A DNA stretch of 64,000 nt from Rhodopirellula europaea 6C (GTDB lineage Bacteria; Planctomycetota; Planctomycetia; Pirellulales; Pirellulaceae), in the NCBI RefSeq assembly GCF_000338295.1, contig NZ_ANMO01000097.1, positions 62,001 through 126,000 on the forward strand, read 5' to 3'. Of this stretch, positions 442 to 8,192 are shown in pieces. The notes under the pieces are model-generated. The model had not been told where the DNA came from, made no database searches, and saw nothing but the letters and a program-made list of their open reading frames with translations. A program made the translations under genes and the position numbers. Position 1 is the first letter of the stretch. Each line of letters begins with the position of its first letter.

Positions 442-1359
442 ATGAACGACGTGTCCTCTGCTCCCTCTGAATCGCTCACCGAATTTTTCCCCGAAGACCT
501 GCTGCACGTGGTTCGTGAAAACCAACCGCTGCGTGAAACGTTGTGGTTGGGCATTGGCGGCCCCGCACGCTTCCTAGCCGAACCGGTCGAAATCGATCAG
601 ATCGAAAAGCTCTACACCGCCGCTCGCGAAAAACAGCTGGCCCTGCGTGTCCTCGGGCAAGGCAGCAACGTGCTGGTTCGTGAAGCCGGTTTCGACGGGT
701 TGGTCATCAAATTGTCCGCTCCCGCAACCAGTGGGCTGGAAATCCAAGGCCAAAAATTGATCGCCGGTGCGGGAGCCAAGCTGACTCACGCGGTGATCAA
801 AACAGTCGGCGAAGGCTTGGGCGGGCTGGAGCACTTGGTCGGTATCCCTGGCAGCATCGGTGCGGCCGTCGTCGGAAACGTCTCAGCGGAAGGTCGCGAC
901 ATCGGATCGGTCGTCGAGTCGATCGAGATCATCGACGAAGAAGGCAAACGCAAAACGCTCACGGGTGAAGAGGCCGGGTTCGCTCACCGTCAATCGACAT
1001 TGATGGGAACCGTGGTTCTGTCGGTAACGTTCAACTTGGAACCCAAGGACGTTTCGGCCCTCACTAAACGCATGCAGAAATTGTGGATCCACCGAGGCCA
1101 GCGTCGTCCATCGGAATCCAATCGCATCGCGATGCCGTTCATCGATCCGGATTCCATTTCGGCGTGCGAGTTGATCAACAGCACCGGACTGGCGGGAATT
1201 CGCGAAGGCGATGTGTCGCTTGATTCGGCGGCACCGCATTACTTGATCGCCCACGAAAACGCGACCAGCGATCAATGCGTGAAACTGATCGGCCGGGTTC
1301 GTGAACAAGTCTTGATGCAAACCGGGATCGACTTGCAGTTGAATCTGCAAATTTGGTAA
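442..1359 (+). CDS. murB: MurB-like FAD protein with replaced catalytic residues
   Basis: A 305-residue homologue of UDP-N-acetylenolpyruvoylglucosamine reductase, the FAD/NADPH enzyme that completes UDP-MurNAc in the cytoplasm. FAD-binding signatures are clear: LGIGGPAR (36-43), GQGSNVL (72-78) and GIPGSIGAA (134-142). The catalytic positions look altered. The usual YR.S tyrosine is His182 (AHRQS), the GS.FKNP serine segment reads AMPFIDP (230-236) with Met231 at the serine, and the C-terminal catalytic Glu of the E-V-R-I-I-G stretch aligns with Asn301 (LNLQIW). Fold assignment is secure, but activity is doubtful. I chose ATG 442 over ATG 328 because the extra 38 residues look non-coding. 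The ftsQ-like gene follows after 10 bp, the order seen in dcw clusters. Confidence 0.8.
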   Translation: MNDVSSAPSESLTEFFPEDLLHVVRENQPLRETLWLGIGGPARFLAEPVEIDQIEKLYTAAREKQLALRVLGQGSNVLVREAGFDGLVIKLSAPATSGLEIQGQKLIAGAGAKLTHAVIKTVGEGLGGLEHLVGIPGSIGAAVVGNVSAEGRDIGSVVESIEIIDEEGKRKTLTGEEAGFAHRQSTLMGTVVLSVTFNLEPKDVSALTKRMQKLWIHRGQRRPSESNRIAMPFIDPDSISACELINSTGLAGIREGDVSLDSAAPHYLIAHENATSDQCVKLIGRVREQVLMQTGIDLQLNLQIW

Positions 1360-1369
1360 CCGTACTCGG

Positions 1370-2254
1370 ATGACCGAGTCGCCCCCATCCGAAAAACGAC
1401 CACGATTGATCCGGCGGAAGCGCGGACTGGAAGTGGAAGAACCGTCAACGATGGTTGGATGGGTCCGCGGGATGATTGCCGCACCGGCGGTCTTGTCGAT
1501 TCTTTGGCCTGCCATCTTGCTGGTCGTCGGCTACGCCGCCTGGCAAACTTGGGGAGCCAATTATGTTGCGGTGAACTATCACGGGATTGATCCACAAAAG
1601 ATCTCCGTGACGTCGCCACCGGAATACGTTCGGACGGACATCGTCGATGTCGTCTACACCGAAACAGCGATGAAGGACATGTCGCTGCTCGACAAACAGG
1701 TTTCCGCGAAAGTGGCTTCTGCGTTTGCGAGTCATCCATGGGTGCAGCGTGTTGTCGGTGTGCGAAAAAAGGCAAACGGCCGACTCGATGTGCGTCTGAA
1801 TTATCGATTGCCCGTCGCAATGGTCTACGTTGACGATCCCAAAACCGGACCTGGTTTCTTGGTGGTCGACGGCGAAGGCACCTTGTTGCCGAGCGACTTT
1901 GCACCATCCGAAACCGATCACTACCTGCACATCATCGTTCCCGGTGCTTATCACACCGGCGGACTTGGATCGCCTTTCGGCGACACGCGAGTTCATTGCG
2001 CGGCGTTGTTGGCGAGATTGCTGGCACCTCATCGCACCGAGTTGGGTTTGAAGAGCATCGGGGTGCATGGAGATTTGCGTCAAAACCCAATCGTTCAGCT
2101 CGAAATCGCGAATGAGGATGGTGAACGTTGGTTCTGGGGCAGTCCTCCTGGCGAAGAGGTTGCGGGCGAAATGCCTGCGGCGATGAAGTTGCAAGCGATG
2201 TTGGCTGGCGTGCCGACTGGATCGGATTTGCGGCAAGTTCAACTTCAGCCGTAG
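1370..2254 (+). CDS. FtsQ/DivIB-like cell division membrane protein
   Basis: A 294-residue protein with a basic cytoplasmic N-terminus (KRPRLIRRKRG, 9-19), one membrane segment at about 37-57 and an extracytoplasmic domain. The domain resembles the POTRA plus beta region of FtsQ/DivIB: HPWVQRVVGVRKK (122-134), LDVRLNYRLPVAMV (139-152), then VVDGEGTLLP (165-174), matching the HPWV..a.V.R.wP..L.V...E..PvA.. and later d..G.vl layout. FtsQ scaffolds FtsB/FtsL and septal synthases. It starts 10 bp after the murB-like gene and is probably co-transcribed. No ftsA or ftsZ follows; the next gene is a sulfatase. The call rests on motif, topology and position, not on a search. Confidence 0.6.
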   Translation: MTESPPSEKRPRLIRRKRGLEVEEPSTMVGWVRGMIAAPAVLSILWPAILLVVGYAAWQTWGANYVAVNYHGIDPQKISVTSPPEYVRTDIVDVVYTETAMKDMSLLDKQVSAKVASAFASHPWVQRVVGVRKKANGRLDVRLNYRLPVAMVYVDDPKTGPGFLVVDGEGTLLPSDFAPSETDHYLHIIVPGAYHTGGLGSPFGDTRVHCAALLARLLAPHRTELGLKSIGVHGDLRQNPIVQLEIANEDGERWFWGSPPGEEVAGEMPAAMKLQAMLAGVPTGSDLRQVQLQP

Positions 2255-4099: not shown

Positions 4100-5608
4100 C
4101 TATTCGGCCACCGCGTTCTGTTCGCGAACGTCGGCGTAGACGATCGCAGACAGCCACACGAGGCAGATGACTTGTCCGACCAAAGCCGCCACGGCGATTG
4201 CGATTGCGCCGTAGGACCCGACGAACGCGGCGGTCAGTCCCAGCATGACGACGGAAGCAACGATTCGGCATCGGATCGGTGCGAGTGGTTTGCCTCGGCC
4301 TTTGACGTAGCTGTCCAGCCCTTGCAGGATGCCTTTGATCGCGGACACCGGAGCGAGCCACCAGGCGAACACAATGGCGGGGGCGAACTCTTCGCCGTAA
4401 ACGAGCTTCACCAACGGCCCGATTAAGATGATGAAGACGATGGTGGAAACGGTTTGAATCGCGATCGAACCACCGAGGATTCGGTGCACATCTGATGTCC
4501 GCAGTCGCTTGCTGCGATCCGCTGCGGTGTTGAACAGGTAAATGCCAAGCGTGTTGGGAATCACCGTCAGCGGATAGACGACCGGAACCATCGCGGCGTA
4601 AAACCCTTGCGTCAACAAGGGAACCAACCACATCACGAGCAGCAAATCCAATCGCTCGAAAAGGTCCGTCGCCAACATGGAAACGCCGTATGGTCGGCTC
4701 TCTTTCAACAGACGCTTGACCGGCGGTTCACTTTCTCCCGTGGCCAGTTTGGGAAGTCCGAATACACATGCGGCCATGGATATTGCCGATGCGATGACGA
4801 ACAACACGCACGCCAAATTCAGCGTCACGTCAGTCACAAGGGCAGCGACCAGCAACAAAGCGGGAAACGCCGCGGCTGAAACGAAACGACGCACGTTGTA
4901 CTTCGAAAAGTCACCCGCCCCGCGATCGACCGCGGTCATGATCAGCATCACGTGCTGGCCGATGACGCTGAACGCACAGAGGCAACCCAGCGACATCAGA
5001 TAGGCTTTTTCGTCGGGTAACGCGATCACATTGCAGAGCACAACCAATCCGGTCGTGACGACTCCGGTGGTCAGGCCCAACCACATCGCCGCTCGTCGAA
5101 GTTTGATCGTCTCAACCGTTCGGTCGGCGGCGTAACGGCAGATGACTTCCACGCCGCCGAACAAGCCGATGTAGAGCAGCATTTGCACGTACAAAACGGT
5201 TGTTGCGTATTCGCCTCGGCCGACCGGTCCGAGCAATCGGGCCAGCAAAATGCCTTGGCCCATCTGCAACGCCACAATCCCAAATGCGAATCCGACTGTT
5301 TGAGCAAACGAAAACGCCTTGGCAAACTTGCTCGGGGCAGCGGAGGCGCCAGCTTCTTCCGCGGATGACGACTGATAGGCGTTTGCCGGACCGGGAACGG
5401 CCTCGCCAGCGACGGCCAATCCAGCGTCCGCGCTTGCTTGGGACGCGGAGCAATCGGCTCCGGTTGGTTCGCCACAATTGGGCGGGCACTCGCTGGTTCC
5501 ATCAGTGCCAACAGTTGCAACACGTTCGTCCGAAGAATCAGACCGATCGCCCAGAATGCTGGAGTCACCTGGTGCAGATGAGTCGGTAGAGGTTCGGTCA
5601 GATGGCAT
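4100..5608 (-). CDS. MOP-superfamily polysaccharide flippase
   Basis: A 502-residue multi-pass membrane protein of the Wzx/MurJ-like MOP exporter superfamily, expected to flip lipid-linked glycans. The first membrane region contains QMGQGILLARLLGPVGRGEY, the usual start of polysaccharide-biosynthesis flippases, and about twelve further hydrophobic segments follow. An acidic, Ser/Gly/Ala-rich tail of roughly 90 residues precedes the membrane domain and looks disordered. I place the start at ATG 5608 (MPSDRTSTDSS), because the longer frame to 5698 would overlap the FHA gene. It is the last gene of a kinase, FHA protein, flippase run on one strand. The Ser/Thr-rich tail could be a phosphorylation target, which is inference. 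Confidence 0.75.
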   Translation of the reverse strand: MPSDRTSTDSSAPGDSSILGDRSDSSDERVATVGTDGTSECPPNCGEPTGADCSASQASADAGLAVAGEAVPGPANAYQSSSAEEAGASAAPSKFAKAFSFAQTVGFAFGIVALQMGQGILLARLLGPVGRGEYATTVLYVQMLLYIGLFGGVEVICRYAADRTVETIKLRRAAMWLGLTTGVVTTGLVVLCNVIALPDEKAYLMSLGCLCAFSVIGQHVMLIMTAVDRGAGDFSKYNVRRFVSAAAFPALLLVAALVTDVTLNLACVLFVIASAISMAACVFGLPKLATGESEPPVKRLLKESRPYGVSMLATDLFERLDLLLVMWLVPLLTQGFYAAMVPVVYPLTVIPNTLGIYLFNTAADRSKRLRTSDVHRILGGSIAIQTVSTIVFIILIGPLVKLVYGEEFAPAIVFAWWLAPVSAIKGILQGLDSYVKGRGKPLAPIRCRIVASVVMLGLTAAFVGSYGAIAIAVAALVGQVICLVWLSAIVYADVREQNAVAE

Positions 5609-5655
5609 GTTGCGGAGCAGTATAGTTGCGATCAGTGCATCCGCTTCAGGCCTCG

Positions 5656-6654
5656 TCAGTCGATTCCGTCTACGATTCGGACTTCCGGACCCTGCCAAAA
5701 CTGCATCACTTGGTAGCCGCCGAAGACGAAAACAGCGATCGTCATCGCGAAGGCGGCGTAGATTTTTACCTTGTCCCAGTCGACTCGGTTGAGAACGCTC
5801 GTTTTGGCTGCACCTTTTACTTTTGCAGAGGGGGGCGATCCCGAGCCGCGTTTGTTTGTGGCGGCGCCTCTGTCTGATGGCGTTTGATCGGGCGATTCCG
5901 CCGCATCGTCGTCGATAAATTCTTCGTCCTGATCGAAGATTTCTGAATCCGATTGCGACGAATCAGGATTGGAGGTTTTGGCGCGAATATCGTCGTAGCG
6001 TGCTTCGCGAGCGACCGTGTCTTCGGCTTCCAAAAACGACGCGATGTCGACTTCCTGCCACGCTTCGCCTTGAAGTAACGACACCGTGGGGGACTCGGCG
6101 ACCGCCGCCCGAGGCGAATTGGATTGGCTGGGTTGCCCGGCGGCATCGCTGTCCTCAAAGCCCGACGCAGTGTCAAATCCGCGTTCGTTCACCACCGTGT
6201 CTTCGCGTGGATCGATGGCGGGAGCTTGTTTACGAGCCGCTTCTTCAGCGGACTCGATCGCCAGCCCGAAAGCGATTTTGCCGCATCTCAGTTCGGCACC
6301 ATCGACCAGTTCGATCCAGGTCCGAGTCGGAATGCGGGTCCCGTTGACTCGCGTTCCTGCAGAACTGTCGAGATCGAAAACTCGGAACCGCGGCTCGGAA
6401 TCATCCGGCGTTTCCCAGTGCAGCAGGCAGTGTTTTCGACTCACCGAACGGCTCTTCGGACGGATCTGGCAAACGCGATCGCGACCGATCATGTAATACC
6501 CAGACCGAATTTCCGCGACCATGCCGGCCCGGCTGCCGGTTGCCAAGATCAGTTGTGCGGAGCTATCGGTCACCGGATTCTGTCGGTTGTGCATCGGAGG
6601 GAAGGATCCGGTCCGACCACTCTTGGGCCGCCCCGCTACTGCGGTTGTGATCAT
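5656..6654 (-). CDS. FHA-domain protein with C-terminal membrane anchor
   Basis: A 332-residue protein. Residues about 34-120 form a forkhead-associated domain, which binds phosphothreonine peptides: YYMIGRD (53-59), SRKHC (72-76), SSAGTRVNG (97-105). A long acidic low-complexity linker follows, then one membrane helix at about 298-318 with a short tail, so the FHA domain should face the cytoplasm. It begins 29 bp after the kinase stop and is probably in the same operon, which makes kinase-dependent phosphopeptide recognition its likely job. ATG 6594 is a possible alternative start. The client is unknown; the downstream flippase is a candidate. Confidence 0.85.
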   Translation of the reverse strand: MITTAVAGRPKSGRTGSFPPMHNRQNPVTDSSAQLILATGSRAGMVAEIRSGYYMIGRDRVCQIRPKSRSVSRKHCLLHWETPDDSEPRFRVFDLDSSAGTRVNGTRIPTRTWIELVDGAELRCGKIAFGLAIESAEEAARKQAPAIDPREDTVVNERGFDTASGFEDSDAAGQPSQSNSPRAAVAESPTVSLLQGEAWQEVDIASFLEAEDTVAREARYDDIRAKTSNPDSSQSDSEIFDQDEEFIDDDAAESPDQTPSDRGAATNKRGSGSPPSAKVKGAAKTSVLNRVDWDKVKIYAAFAMTIAVFVFGGYQVMQFWQGPEVRIVDGID

Positions 6655-6683
6655 AACAAAAACGATTCAATTTTGCCGGGGTT

Positions 6684-8192
6684 TCAGCCACCGTTGATGA
6701 TGACGATCTCTTTGCCGCTCTCGGTGGCTTTGATCTTCGGTGCCGGCGGATTATCAGGTTTCGCGATCGTGTAAGCCGCCATCCCGAGCACTGTCATCAG
6801 GGCGATGACGGCGATCGCCAGTCCCATGCCCAGCATCAGCGTTTGGCTTTGATTGGATCCGGACGATGACTGTTTGTTTGATGCCGAGCCCGCACGAGGC
6901 GGCGGTGGGGTCGCCAGTCCAGCCGTTGATGTAGGGAAGGCACTCGGTGTGGTCGCGACGCCGATGTCGGGCAGGGTGCTGAAATCAAACTCGCCCGCAT
7001 CCTGCAAAGTTTCGTCGGCATCCGATCCGTTGAAGACCGACTGGTCGTCCATCGTCGCTTGATAAAGTTGACTTTCATCGGTCGTGTCCGAGTTCGATGC
7101 GATCGCGGCGAGCGGCTGATGATTTTTCTGTTTCAGTCCGGCTGAGCGGCGGATGCGATCGAATTGGCCGATCAAGTCCACTGCGGACGGCGGACGATCC
7201 GCAGGCTTCTTCGCCATCATGCGAGTCAGCAGACTGGCCAGCGGTGCGGGGCAATCGGGCCGCAGTTTGCGAACGTCGGGGATGGGGGCGGTTTGATGTT
7301 TGGCCAACCGTTGTGCGACGGTGTCGCCTTTATATGGCGGACGACCAGTCAGCAAAAAGAACAACGTGCATCCGAGCGAATAGATGTCCGCTCTCGCATC
7401 GACGCTGTGACTGTTGAGAGCCTGTTCCGGTGCGACGAAGTCGGCTGTTCCCGTCAACCGACGTTTACTGGTATCGCCCGATCCTTCCGACCATCCGATG
7501 CGAGCCAGTCCCATGTCGCTGACCTTCACCACACCGTCGGACCGCAACATCAGGTTGGACGGTTTGATGTCGCGGTGAATGATTCCGCGTTCGTGAGCGT
7601 GAGCCAATCCGCCGGTGGCTTGATACATCGCATCGATTGCCGCGGCGATGGACATCACACCATCGCGAGCGACGACCTGATGCAGGTCAATCCCGTCGAT
7701 GTACTCCATCACGATATAGAGTTTGCCGTTGGACTGATTGAAGTCGTAGGCGCGAACGATGTTTGGATGATCTAGTTGTGCCGACGCTCGAGCCTCTTCT
7801 TGAAAACGCTGGATCCGGCGTTCATCGCGGCTGGCATTCGAGTTCAAAATCTTGAGCGCCATCTGACGCTTCATGACGTTGTGTTCACCCAGGTAAACCA
7901 TCCCCATGCCGCCTTTGCCGAGCGGACGAAGCAGTTTGTAGGCCCCCAGAAAGAAGCCTTTGCTCTTTCCCGCGAGCAGCTTGCTGGCCTGCCACCGCGT
8001 CAACAAACCTGCGTTCTGCATCCCATCGGACAAACGTTGCGGGGTGAACCGGGTGTCGTCGGTCATCAAAGAAGCGACGACCGTTTTGATCTCGTCCAAT
8101 GTCACCACACCGGCAGCGATGGATCGCCGCACGAGTGCACGGGACTCTTCATCTAGGATGGGCGCAGAGGCGGGAGGGCTCTCGGCAGACAT
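6684..8192 (-). CDS. Hanks-type Ser/Thr protein kinase
   Basis: A 502-residue eukaryotic-like kinase. A planctomycete-type N-terminal region (1-80) precedes the catalytic domain (about 85-350): glycine loop LGKGGMGMVYLG (91-102), Lys114 in MALKIL, catalytic loop HRDIKPSN (206-213) with Asp208, and SDMGLA (225-230) replacing DFG by DMG, as in many bacterial homologues. A Ser/Gly-rich linker leads to one membrane helix near 452-476 and a short outside tail, so there is no large sensor domain. First gene of the kinase, FHA, flippase run. Confidence 0.92.
   Translation of the reverse strand: MSAESPPASAPILDEESRALVRRSIAAGVVTLDEIKTVVASLMTDDTRFTPQRLSDGMQNAGLLTRWQASKLLAGKSKGFFLGAYKLLRPLGKGGMGMVYLGEHNVMKRQMALKILNSNASRDERRIQRFQEEARASAQLDHPNIVRAYDFNQSNGKLYIVMEYIDGIDLHQVVARDGVMSIAAAIDAMYQATGGLAHAHERGIIHRDIKPSNLMLRSDGVVKVSDMGLARIGWSEGSGDTSKRRLTGTADFVAPEQALNSHSVDARADIYSLGCTLFFLLTGRPPYKGDTVAQRLAKHQTAPIPDVRKLRPDCPAPLASLLTRMMAKKPADRPPSAVDLIGQFDRIRRSAGLKQKNHQPLAAIASNSDTTDESQLYQATMDDQSVFNGSDADETLQDAGEFDFSTLPDIGVATTPSAFPTSTAGLATPPPPRAGSASNKQSSSGSNQSQTLMLGMGLAIAVIALMTVLGMAAYTIAKPDNPPAPKIKATESGKEIVIINGG

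Follow-up and report, generated by a model that had tools for sequence, protein, structure and literature searches.

A MurB homologue with replaced catalytic residues beside an FtsQ-like gene in Rhodopirellula europaea: a candidate pseudoenzyme

Introduction

The presence of peptidoglycan in Rhodopirellula and its relatives, which divide without FtsZ, has long been disputed. Surveys count murB among the small number of wall genes retained throughout, and the available parts of their text do not explain why. Henriques et al. 2025 (PMC12283558, available text) name three dcw genes, murB, mraW and ftsK, that alone are conserved across the PVC bacteria, and find murA, C, D, F, G, murJ and ftsW lost from Pirellulales, Isosphaerales and Gemmatales. 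Rivas-Marin et al. 2023 (PMC10632474, likewise in the available text) report that murB is very conserved in Planctomycetia and not essential. One such gene lies in the window analysed here, a stretch of 64,000 nucleotides from Rhodopirellula europaea 6C. Its product, P0001, was flagged by a sequence-only reading as a MurB homologue in which the FAD-binding motifs are kept and three catalytic positions are changed together. What, then, is a MurB kept for if it lacks the residues of its own reaction?

A MurB fold below the curated cut-offs

The features of the gene, all on the plus strand of the window, are as follows.

442..1359, plus strand: P0001, a 305-aa MurB homologue whose catalytic positions are changed (open reading frame, Pfam, NCBIfam, phmmer, model)
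511..981, plus strand: FAD-binding half, residues 24-180, with motifs G39-G40-P-A42, G72-x-G74-S75-N76, G134-I-P-G137 and N146
985..987, plus strand: His182, in place of Tyr158 of E. coli MurB
1066..1089, plus strand: the stretch K209-R-M-Q-K-L-W-I216 on a helix, invariant across the 33 rows of alignment A1
1132..1134, plus strand: Met231, at the general-acid position (Ser229 in E. coli, mostly Cys in other planctomycetes)
1342..1344, plus strand: Asn301, in place of the catalytic Glu (Glu325 in E. coli)

Both Pfam domains of a MurB, FAD_binding_4 (E 7.7e-17) and MurB_C (E 4.3e-17), are found in P0001 above their gathering scores. The protein falls below the curated NCBIfam cut-offs, narrowly for TIGR00179 (143.0 against 144.5 bits) and clearly for NF010480 (207.4 against 259). 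In the published division of MurB, domains I and II form the FAD module and domain III the substrate module, and Ser229 is contacted by inhibitors (PMC10058398, available text). Over 295 residues the AlphaFold model of P0001 (pLDDT 89.9) superposes on MurB 4pyt at rmsd 2.2 (TM 0.86, Z 34.7), and Z is 34.4 with Staphylococcus aureus MurB 1hsk; as modelled, P0001 is a MurB fold at nearly full length. The K209-I216 stretch lies inside helix 204-219 of the same model. The nearest relatives are in genomes of the same genus (91-99% identity), and the nearest named records, at 73-75%, are from Rhodopirellula, Neorhodopirellula and Aporhodopirellula species.

Three catalytic positions changed together

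Tyr158, Ser229 and Glu325 of the E. coli enzyme are active-site residues of MurB, the last two acting in proton transfer. Aligned with E. coli MurB (reference sequence, locus L127), residues Y158, R159, S229, N233 and E325 correspond to H182, R183, M231, D235 and N301 of P0001, so that Arg159 is kept as Arg183 and the three replacements proposed from the sequence alone fall where they had been placed. Among the five phmmer alignments shown to solved MurB chains, four place Met231 opposite Ser and the fifth, to the Thermus chain 2gqt, opposite Cys, and Asn301 stands opposite Glu in all three that extend that far. The earlier account is corrected on one point, as the acid position of planctomycetes is mostly Cys and not Ser: 12 Cys and 2 Ser in 14 planctomycete genomes with peptidoglycan genes. 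Of the 30 MurBs that score best in the phylum sample, 24 have Cys, 6 have Ser and all 30 have the Glu. Could other residues have taken over? In the sequence alignments, from which this residue-level check was made as structural superposition gave no residue pairs, P0001 has no Ser, Cys or Glu at the acid or Glu position; that other Ser/Cys and Glu residues occupy these positions, which had been named as one way the claim could fail, is not what the alignments give. The closest Ser or Glu residues to Met231 are Ser224, Glu225 and Ser226, 5-7 residues upstream.

The changes are a property of the group, a pattern out of reach of the sequence-only reading. In 30 Rhodopirellula-like copies (at least 60% identity; E. 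coli numbering, positions 229 and 325 being 231 and 301 of P0001), position 158 is His in 28 and Tyr in 2, Arg159 is present in 30, Asp233 in 28, position 229 is Met in 26, Thr in 3 and Val in 1, and Asn325 is found in all 30. A sequencing error, chance and decay in a single genome are ruled out by these counts (Asn301 in 30/30, His182 in 28/30, Ser or Cys at 231 in 0/30).

Loss of the pathway around MurB

The source genome has 7.19 Mb in 273 contigs and a completeness of 99.93%. P0001 is its sole match to the TIGR00179 profile at E 0.001, so the second, canonical MurB for which the sequence-only reading had advised a search is rejected. No MurA exceeds the cut-off (best TIGR01072 match 26.2 against 392.7 bits), nor does any MraY (best 72 against 192 bits), and the search for a PBP transpeptidase gave nothing. 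Mur_ligase_M has two weak matches, which belong to FolC (318 bits) and PgsB (561 bits), and this disposes of a Mur-ligase remnant. The searched enzymes upstream and downstream of the MurB step are absent from this genome. The PgsB gene lies on contig 165 (L304 1750-3075), and similar open reading frames were seen by eye in L185 and L186.

Some Mur ligases persist elsewhere in the family. A MurE homologue is retained in many Pirellulaceae genomes and absent from the source genome; against TIGR01085 (cut-off 257), of the five scanned (L158, L161, L171, L175 and L181) two distant genomes score 340-343 bits and the three closer to Rhodopirellula 132-184 bits, their other Mur_ligase_M matches being mostly unclassified. 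MurE looks like a second orphan in parallel decay. In another member of the family, L173, the matched ligase is a cyanophycin synthetase (1134-1291 bits), and frames of similar length matching Mur_ligase_M occur in several others.

With its catalytic residues and MurA missing, P0001 very probably makes no UDP-MurNAc, as far as sequence can tell, and the earlier suggestion of a flavoprotein derived from MurB and incapable of its reaction gains support from a genome in which MurA, MraY, PBP and Mur ligase are all missing. The opposite reading is that MurB still works, making UDP-MurNAc by an altered mechanism in bacteria that do make peptidoglycan. MurNAc and DAP have been reported in R. baltica by Jeske et al. 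2015, who state in the available text that essential peptidoglycan genes are present in every species they analysed (PMC4432640). This claim about genes conflicts with the present searches, because the relative genome G130, whose MurB is 99% identical to P0001 with the same catalytic changes, lacks a PBP and has neither MurA nor MraY over the cut-off. A working enzyme would also fit the MurB fold and the Thr, a possible proton donor, at the acid position of 3 of the 30 Rhodopirellula-like copies. Against it stand the joint absence of the acid and the Glu from P0001, the gaps in the source genome just described, and the lipid II gene losses described for these orders in the available text of PMC12283558; we consider it very improbable.

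Distribution of site loss and pathway loss

MurB homologues are close to universal in these bacteria. One is found in 189 of 199 genomes of the family and in 143 of the 144 more complete ones; the sampled genomes of the class have a match in 119/119 cases (111 over the cut-off), and the phylum sample in 144/148 (137 over the cut-off). Two loci, L081 (2224-3093) and L123 (6001-6909), hold MurB homologues with an in-frame stop inside the matched span, which may be a draft error or genuine decay.

Peptidoglycan genes, scored as MurA and PBP, were searched for in three sets of genomes. In the first (n=46) both are absent from 36/36 Pirellulales and present in 10/10 planctomycete controls of other orders, and MraY agrees in all 46; in the second (n=21) two genomes have both, one has PBP only and 18 have neither; in the third (n=40) five have both and 35 neither. 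In total 18 of the 107 genomes tested have peptidoglycan genes and 89 do not, with G344 scored as bearing them by its PBP, no MurA having been found there, and with some of those scored as lacking them incomplete (G034 72%, G110 81%, G085 82%). Ten genomes, four with and six without peptidoglycan genes, gave no MurB sequence, which leaves 97 for comparison of the site. Ser/Cys229 and Glu325 are both intact in 14/14 genomes with peptidoglycan genes and in 7/83 without, so that seven genomes retain both catalytic residues in the absence of the pathway genes. The 164 Pirellulaceae-type loci reduce to 141 proteins distinct across their last 250 residues; these keep Ser/Cys in 19 cases, Glu in 13 and both in 7, and three of the seven (L110, L120 and L125, counted among the 141) are from genomes with peptidoglycan genes.

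Does the site decay when the pathway is lost? A Fisher test gives p 4e-12 and treats related genomes as independent, so it is no evidence alone. On a MurB tree of 95 rows, from which two more close relatives were omitted and in which the long rows G263 and G264 join, parsimony has the pathway changing at least seven times and the site ten times, with the well-supported (starred) branches forcing only three of the pathway changes. A tree-paired test finds the expected direction or no difference in all pairings, with three independent pairs on starred branches and a sign test p of 0.25. Corrected for kinship, the link between loss of the pathway and loss of the site is not significant. Two families, f2 (G369/G381/G311) and f56 (G393/G372), contain members with MurA and PBP beside members without either, which suggests recent, separate losses of the pathway.

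Lineage-specific sites under selection

The active site has been changed in three ways in three lineages. Beside the Rhodopirellula-like copies, family f63 (n=11) has Cys229 in 9, Gln325 in 9 and Asp158 in 6, and family f64 (n=14) has Arg or Lys229 in 14, Glu325 in 13, Glu or Asp158 in 12 and His159 in 9. Judging from the orders said to lack the pathway in the available text of PMC12283558, f63 and f64 probably belong to Isosphaerales and Gemmatales.

To see which parts of the protein have been kept, we took 38 other planctomycete MurBs as a reference and used the columns that at least 85% of them conserve; 14 of the 38 come from genomes with confirmed peptidoglycan genes and 24 from the phylum sample at large. 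The 30 Rhodopirellula-like copies keep 25 of 28 such columns on the FAD side and 15 of 30 on the substrate side, where 14 are nearly gone. The retention of FAD motifs proposed from the sequence is borne out in this form, FAD-domain residues being retained and substrate-side residues lost, and P0001 very probably binds flavin. On the substrate side f63 keeps 26/30 columns and f64 18/30. Between close relatives dN/dS (Nei-Gojobori) is 0.018, 0.026, 0.028 and 0.065, and the C-terminal domain (0.004-0.064) is under much the same constraint as the FAD domain; pairs at greater distance range from 0.048 to 0.257, their dS approaching or exceeding saturation. The low dN/dS and the kept FAD-side columns indicate a MurB that is in use, its fold and flavin side constrained. 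One mark of a pseudoenzyme, catalytic residues lost from a protein whose fold and selection are kept, is found in P0001.

Could MurB instead be a functionless relic, persisting by chance beside ftsQ? The other searched lipid II genes are gone from the source genome, as a relic would lead one to expect. Such a gene would not show a dN/dS of 0.018-0.065 between close relatives, which leads us to reject the idea, nor be found in 119/119 genomes of the class; its pairing with ftsQ is kept where three other neighbours are not, and selection acting through ftsQ expression alone would leave the amino acids of MurB unconstrained. Of all the readings this is the least probable.

The main rival to a pseudoenzyme is new chemistry, in which MurB would still be an NAD(P)H-dependent flavoenzyme, acting on another substrate with residues that differ between lineages (His/Met/Asn, Asp/Cys/Gln or Glu/Arg/Glu at 158/229/325). 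The FAD half is retained, the C-terminal domain is under the constraint given above, Arg159 is kept in 130/141 and F231 in 141/141 of the distinct Pirellulaceae-type copies, and the replacements are typical of their lineages. This last point (Arg/Lys229 in 14/14 of f64, Gln325 in 9/11 of f63) counts against a pseudoenzyme and could also mean new chemistry. The rival is weakened because the three lineages have no new active-site set in common, which a single shared reaction would demand, and more substrate-side residues (the columns of E. coli G266, K275 and Q288-L290) have been lost in the Rhodopirellula group. The alternative first offered, pseudoenzyme or new chemistry, may go either way; we hold new chemistry to be a serious possibility, clearly short of an even chance.

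A different use of the kept fold would be as a ligand sensor, binding FAD and perhaps a UDP-sugar without turnover and signalling to FtsQ or another partner. The f63 proteins, with most of their substrate-side columns and Gln for the catalytic Glu in 9/11, fit binding without catalysis, whereas much of that side has been lost in the Rhodopirellula group (15/30 kept) and f64 (18/30). We hold a sensor to be improbable.

R80, L91, G109, M211, W215 and I216 are frequent in the class whether or not the pathway is present, and less so in an outside sample of 24 sequences; the same is true of R210. These class-wide positions hint, at the level of sequence, at a class-specific role of MurB that predates the loss of the pathway. 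A C-terminal Trp considered as a further class-specific mark was dropped, being present in 75% of the outside sample too.

The FtsQ-like neighbour

1370..2254, plus strand: FtsQ-like membrane protein, 294 aa (AlphaFold, Foldseek, Z scores)

The next gene, which the sequence-only reading of murB leaves unmentioned, starts 10 bases past the murB stop codon. Its product has no Pfam or NCBIfam match, and its model (pLDDT 89.3) has the FtsQ arrangement of an N-terminal helix (39-70), a POTRA domain and a beta domain. All eight Foldseek matches at E <= 0.001 are FtsQ, and residues 39-292 of the model superpose on FtsQ chain 8hhf_Q (211 residues aligned, Z 10.0, rmsd 6.1); with E. coli FtsQ 2vh1_A, Z is 9.8. 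Among seven relatives of the protein, POTRA_1 (E 0.019) in one and FtsQ_DivIB_C (E 0.0021) in one are seen below the cut-offs, and five have no match.

The pairing is conserved. An FtsQ-like gene directly follows murB in 112 of the 141 distinct loci, and an open reading frame that would suit is there in 131. In 40 family loci, mostly covering about 4 kb on each side and some shortened by contig ends, the FtsQ-like gene turns up in 34 by HMM or 35 by tblastn. The counts for three other neighbours in the window are 0, 2 and 0; of these, "xylose isomerase" and the third (4100-5698, no Pfam match) were named by eye. Adjacency is seen in 11/11 loci of f63 and 8/14 of f64. Elsewhere in the window (5656-8192, minus strand) an FHA-domain protein is encoded beside a protein kinase gene (Pfam).

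In the 14 genomes with peptidoglycan genes, an FtsQ-like gene is near murB in six and was not found in eight, within flanks of mostly 1.5 kb. Five of the six have it 0.9-1.1 kb downstream, with Ddl in between in G346, G393 and G420 and an unscanned open reading frame of fitting size in G344 and G345. The sixth, G425 (L254), has MurA and PBP and an FtsQ-like gene immediately behind murB. The same adjacency occurs in G273 and G320 (L135 and L147), from another family and scored for MurB only, which is over the cut-off in both. These three genomes indicate that ddl can leave the interval between murB and ftsQ without loss of the pathway.

Is MurB now a partner of FtsQ? The link of MurB to division rests on gene order, and from the conserved adjacency and joint survival of the two genes we put a role with FtsQ in budding or in the envelope at about even. 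Where the pathway is kept, in Planctopirus limnophila, murB and ftsQ are non-essential and deletion of ftsQ makes no difference to shape or growth (PMC10632474, available text). That dispensability may not hold where both genes are remnants.

A proposed history

The reading that we prefer, and to which we give roughly equal odds of being right or wrong, is that P0001 is a pseudoenzyme derived from MurB that binds flavin and probably partners FtsQ in budding independent of a wall. The ancestors of the budding planctomycetes would have lost lipid II synthesis, with ddl and most of the other mur genes gone, and the loss of ddl would have left murB immediately before ftsQ, as gene order and gene content suggest. 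Deletion of ddl would not be strictly tied to loss of the pathway, as a few genomes outside the group show the adjacency too. Without UDP-GlcNAc-enolpyruvate, the residues that hold and protonate the substrate would have been free to change, differently in each lineage, the FAD-binding half and the fold meanwhile remaining under strong purifying selection. The pseudoenzyme would work from the cytoplasm, together with the FtsQ-like membrane protein, as part of an FtsZ-free and wall-independent budding or envelope machinery. The helix motif, frequent in the class whether or not the pathway is present and less so outside it, suggests that MurB had taken on a second role earlier than the loss of the pathway; such a role would explain the retention of murB.

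In its widest form this history would have a former peptidoglycan enzyme as a non-catalytic, FAD-binding part of a division that needs neither FtsZ nor wall, with MurB and FtsQ the minimal unit that survived what appear to be several losses of peptidoglycan in the class, and with the role of MurB older than those losses. Taken whole, we consider this rather unlikely.

Should the retained murB be unable to yield UDP-MurNAc, finding it in a genome would be no evidence of peptidoglycan, the muramic acid reported in R. baltica would need another source, and MurB together with FtsQ would make a short list of testable candidates for parts of the division or envelope machinery. Families f2 and f56, with the pathway kept in some members, amount to a natural experiment on the passage from enzyme to pseudoenzyme.

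Comparison with known systems

That murB outlives the other mur genes is already published, as far as the available texts go, and no report of loss of the MurB active site was found. The literature search, to which subscription papers were mostly closed, returned no report of a changed MurB site; planctomycete MurB with "catalytic residues" gave no match, and MurB with "pseudoenzyme" gave only unrelated work on a reed-beetle symbiont. The orphan murB of PVC bacteria, left by the losses of murA to ftsW listed in the Introduction, is the same gene as that studied here; its presence and essentiality are reported in the available text of PMC12283558 and PMC10632474, the state of its active site is not, and the phrase "active site" is absent from the main text of the former. 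PVC MurBs below the TIGR00179 cut-off, in taxa some of which miss MurC, score 142-144.5 against 143.0 for P0001, and are treated as a detection class without residue analysis in the available text of PMC4803751.

With MurB itself (EC 1.3.1.98), as known from E. coli, S. aureus (1HSK), 4PYT and planctomycetes bearing peptidoglycan genes, P0001 shares the fold and the FAD motifs. It also shares the C-terminal Trp common in planctomycete MurBs and descent from the dcw murB. P0001 differs in that its active-site Tyr, Ser/Cys and Glu are replaced, several substrate-side residues are lost, the curated family scores are missed and the genome has no MurA. Another likeness is to E. coli MurB S229A (PDB 1UXY), which is among the structural matches of P0001 and in which, as in P0001, the general acid is lost and the fold intact. 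S229A is crippled in the second half-reaction. It is an engineered single change, whereas in P0001 three positions have been changed together in nature. To pseudoenzymes in general P0001 is alike in its kept fold and selection and its replaced catalytic residues.
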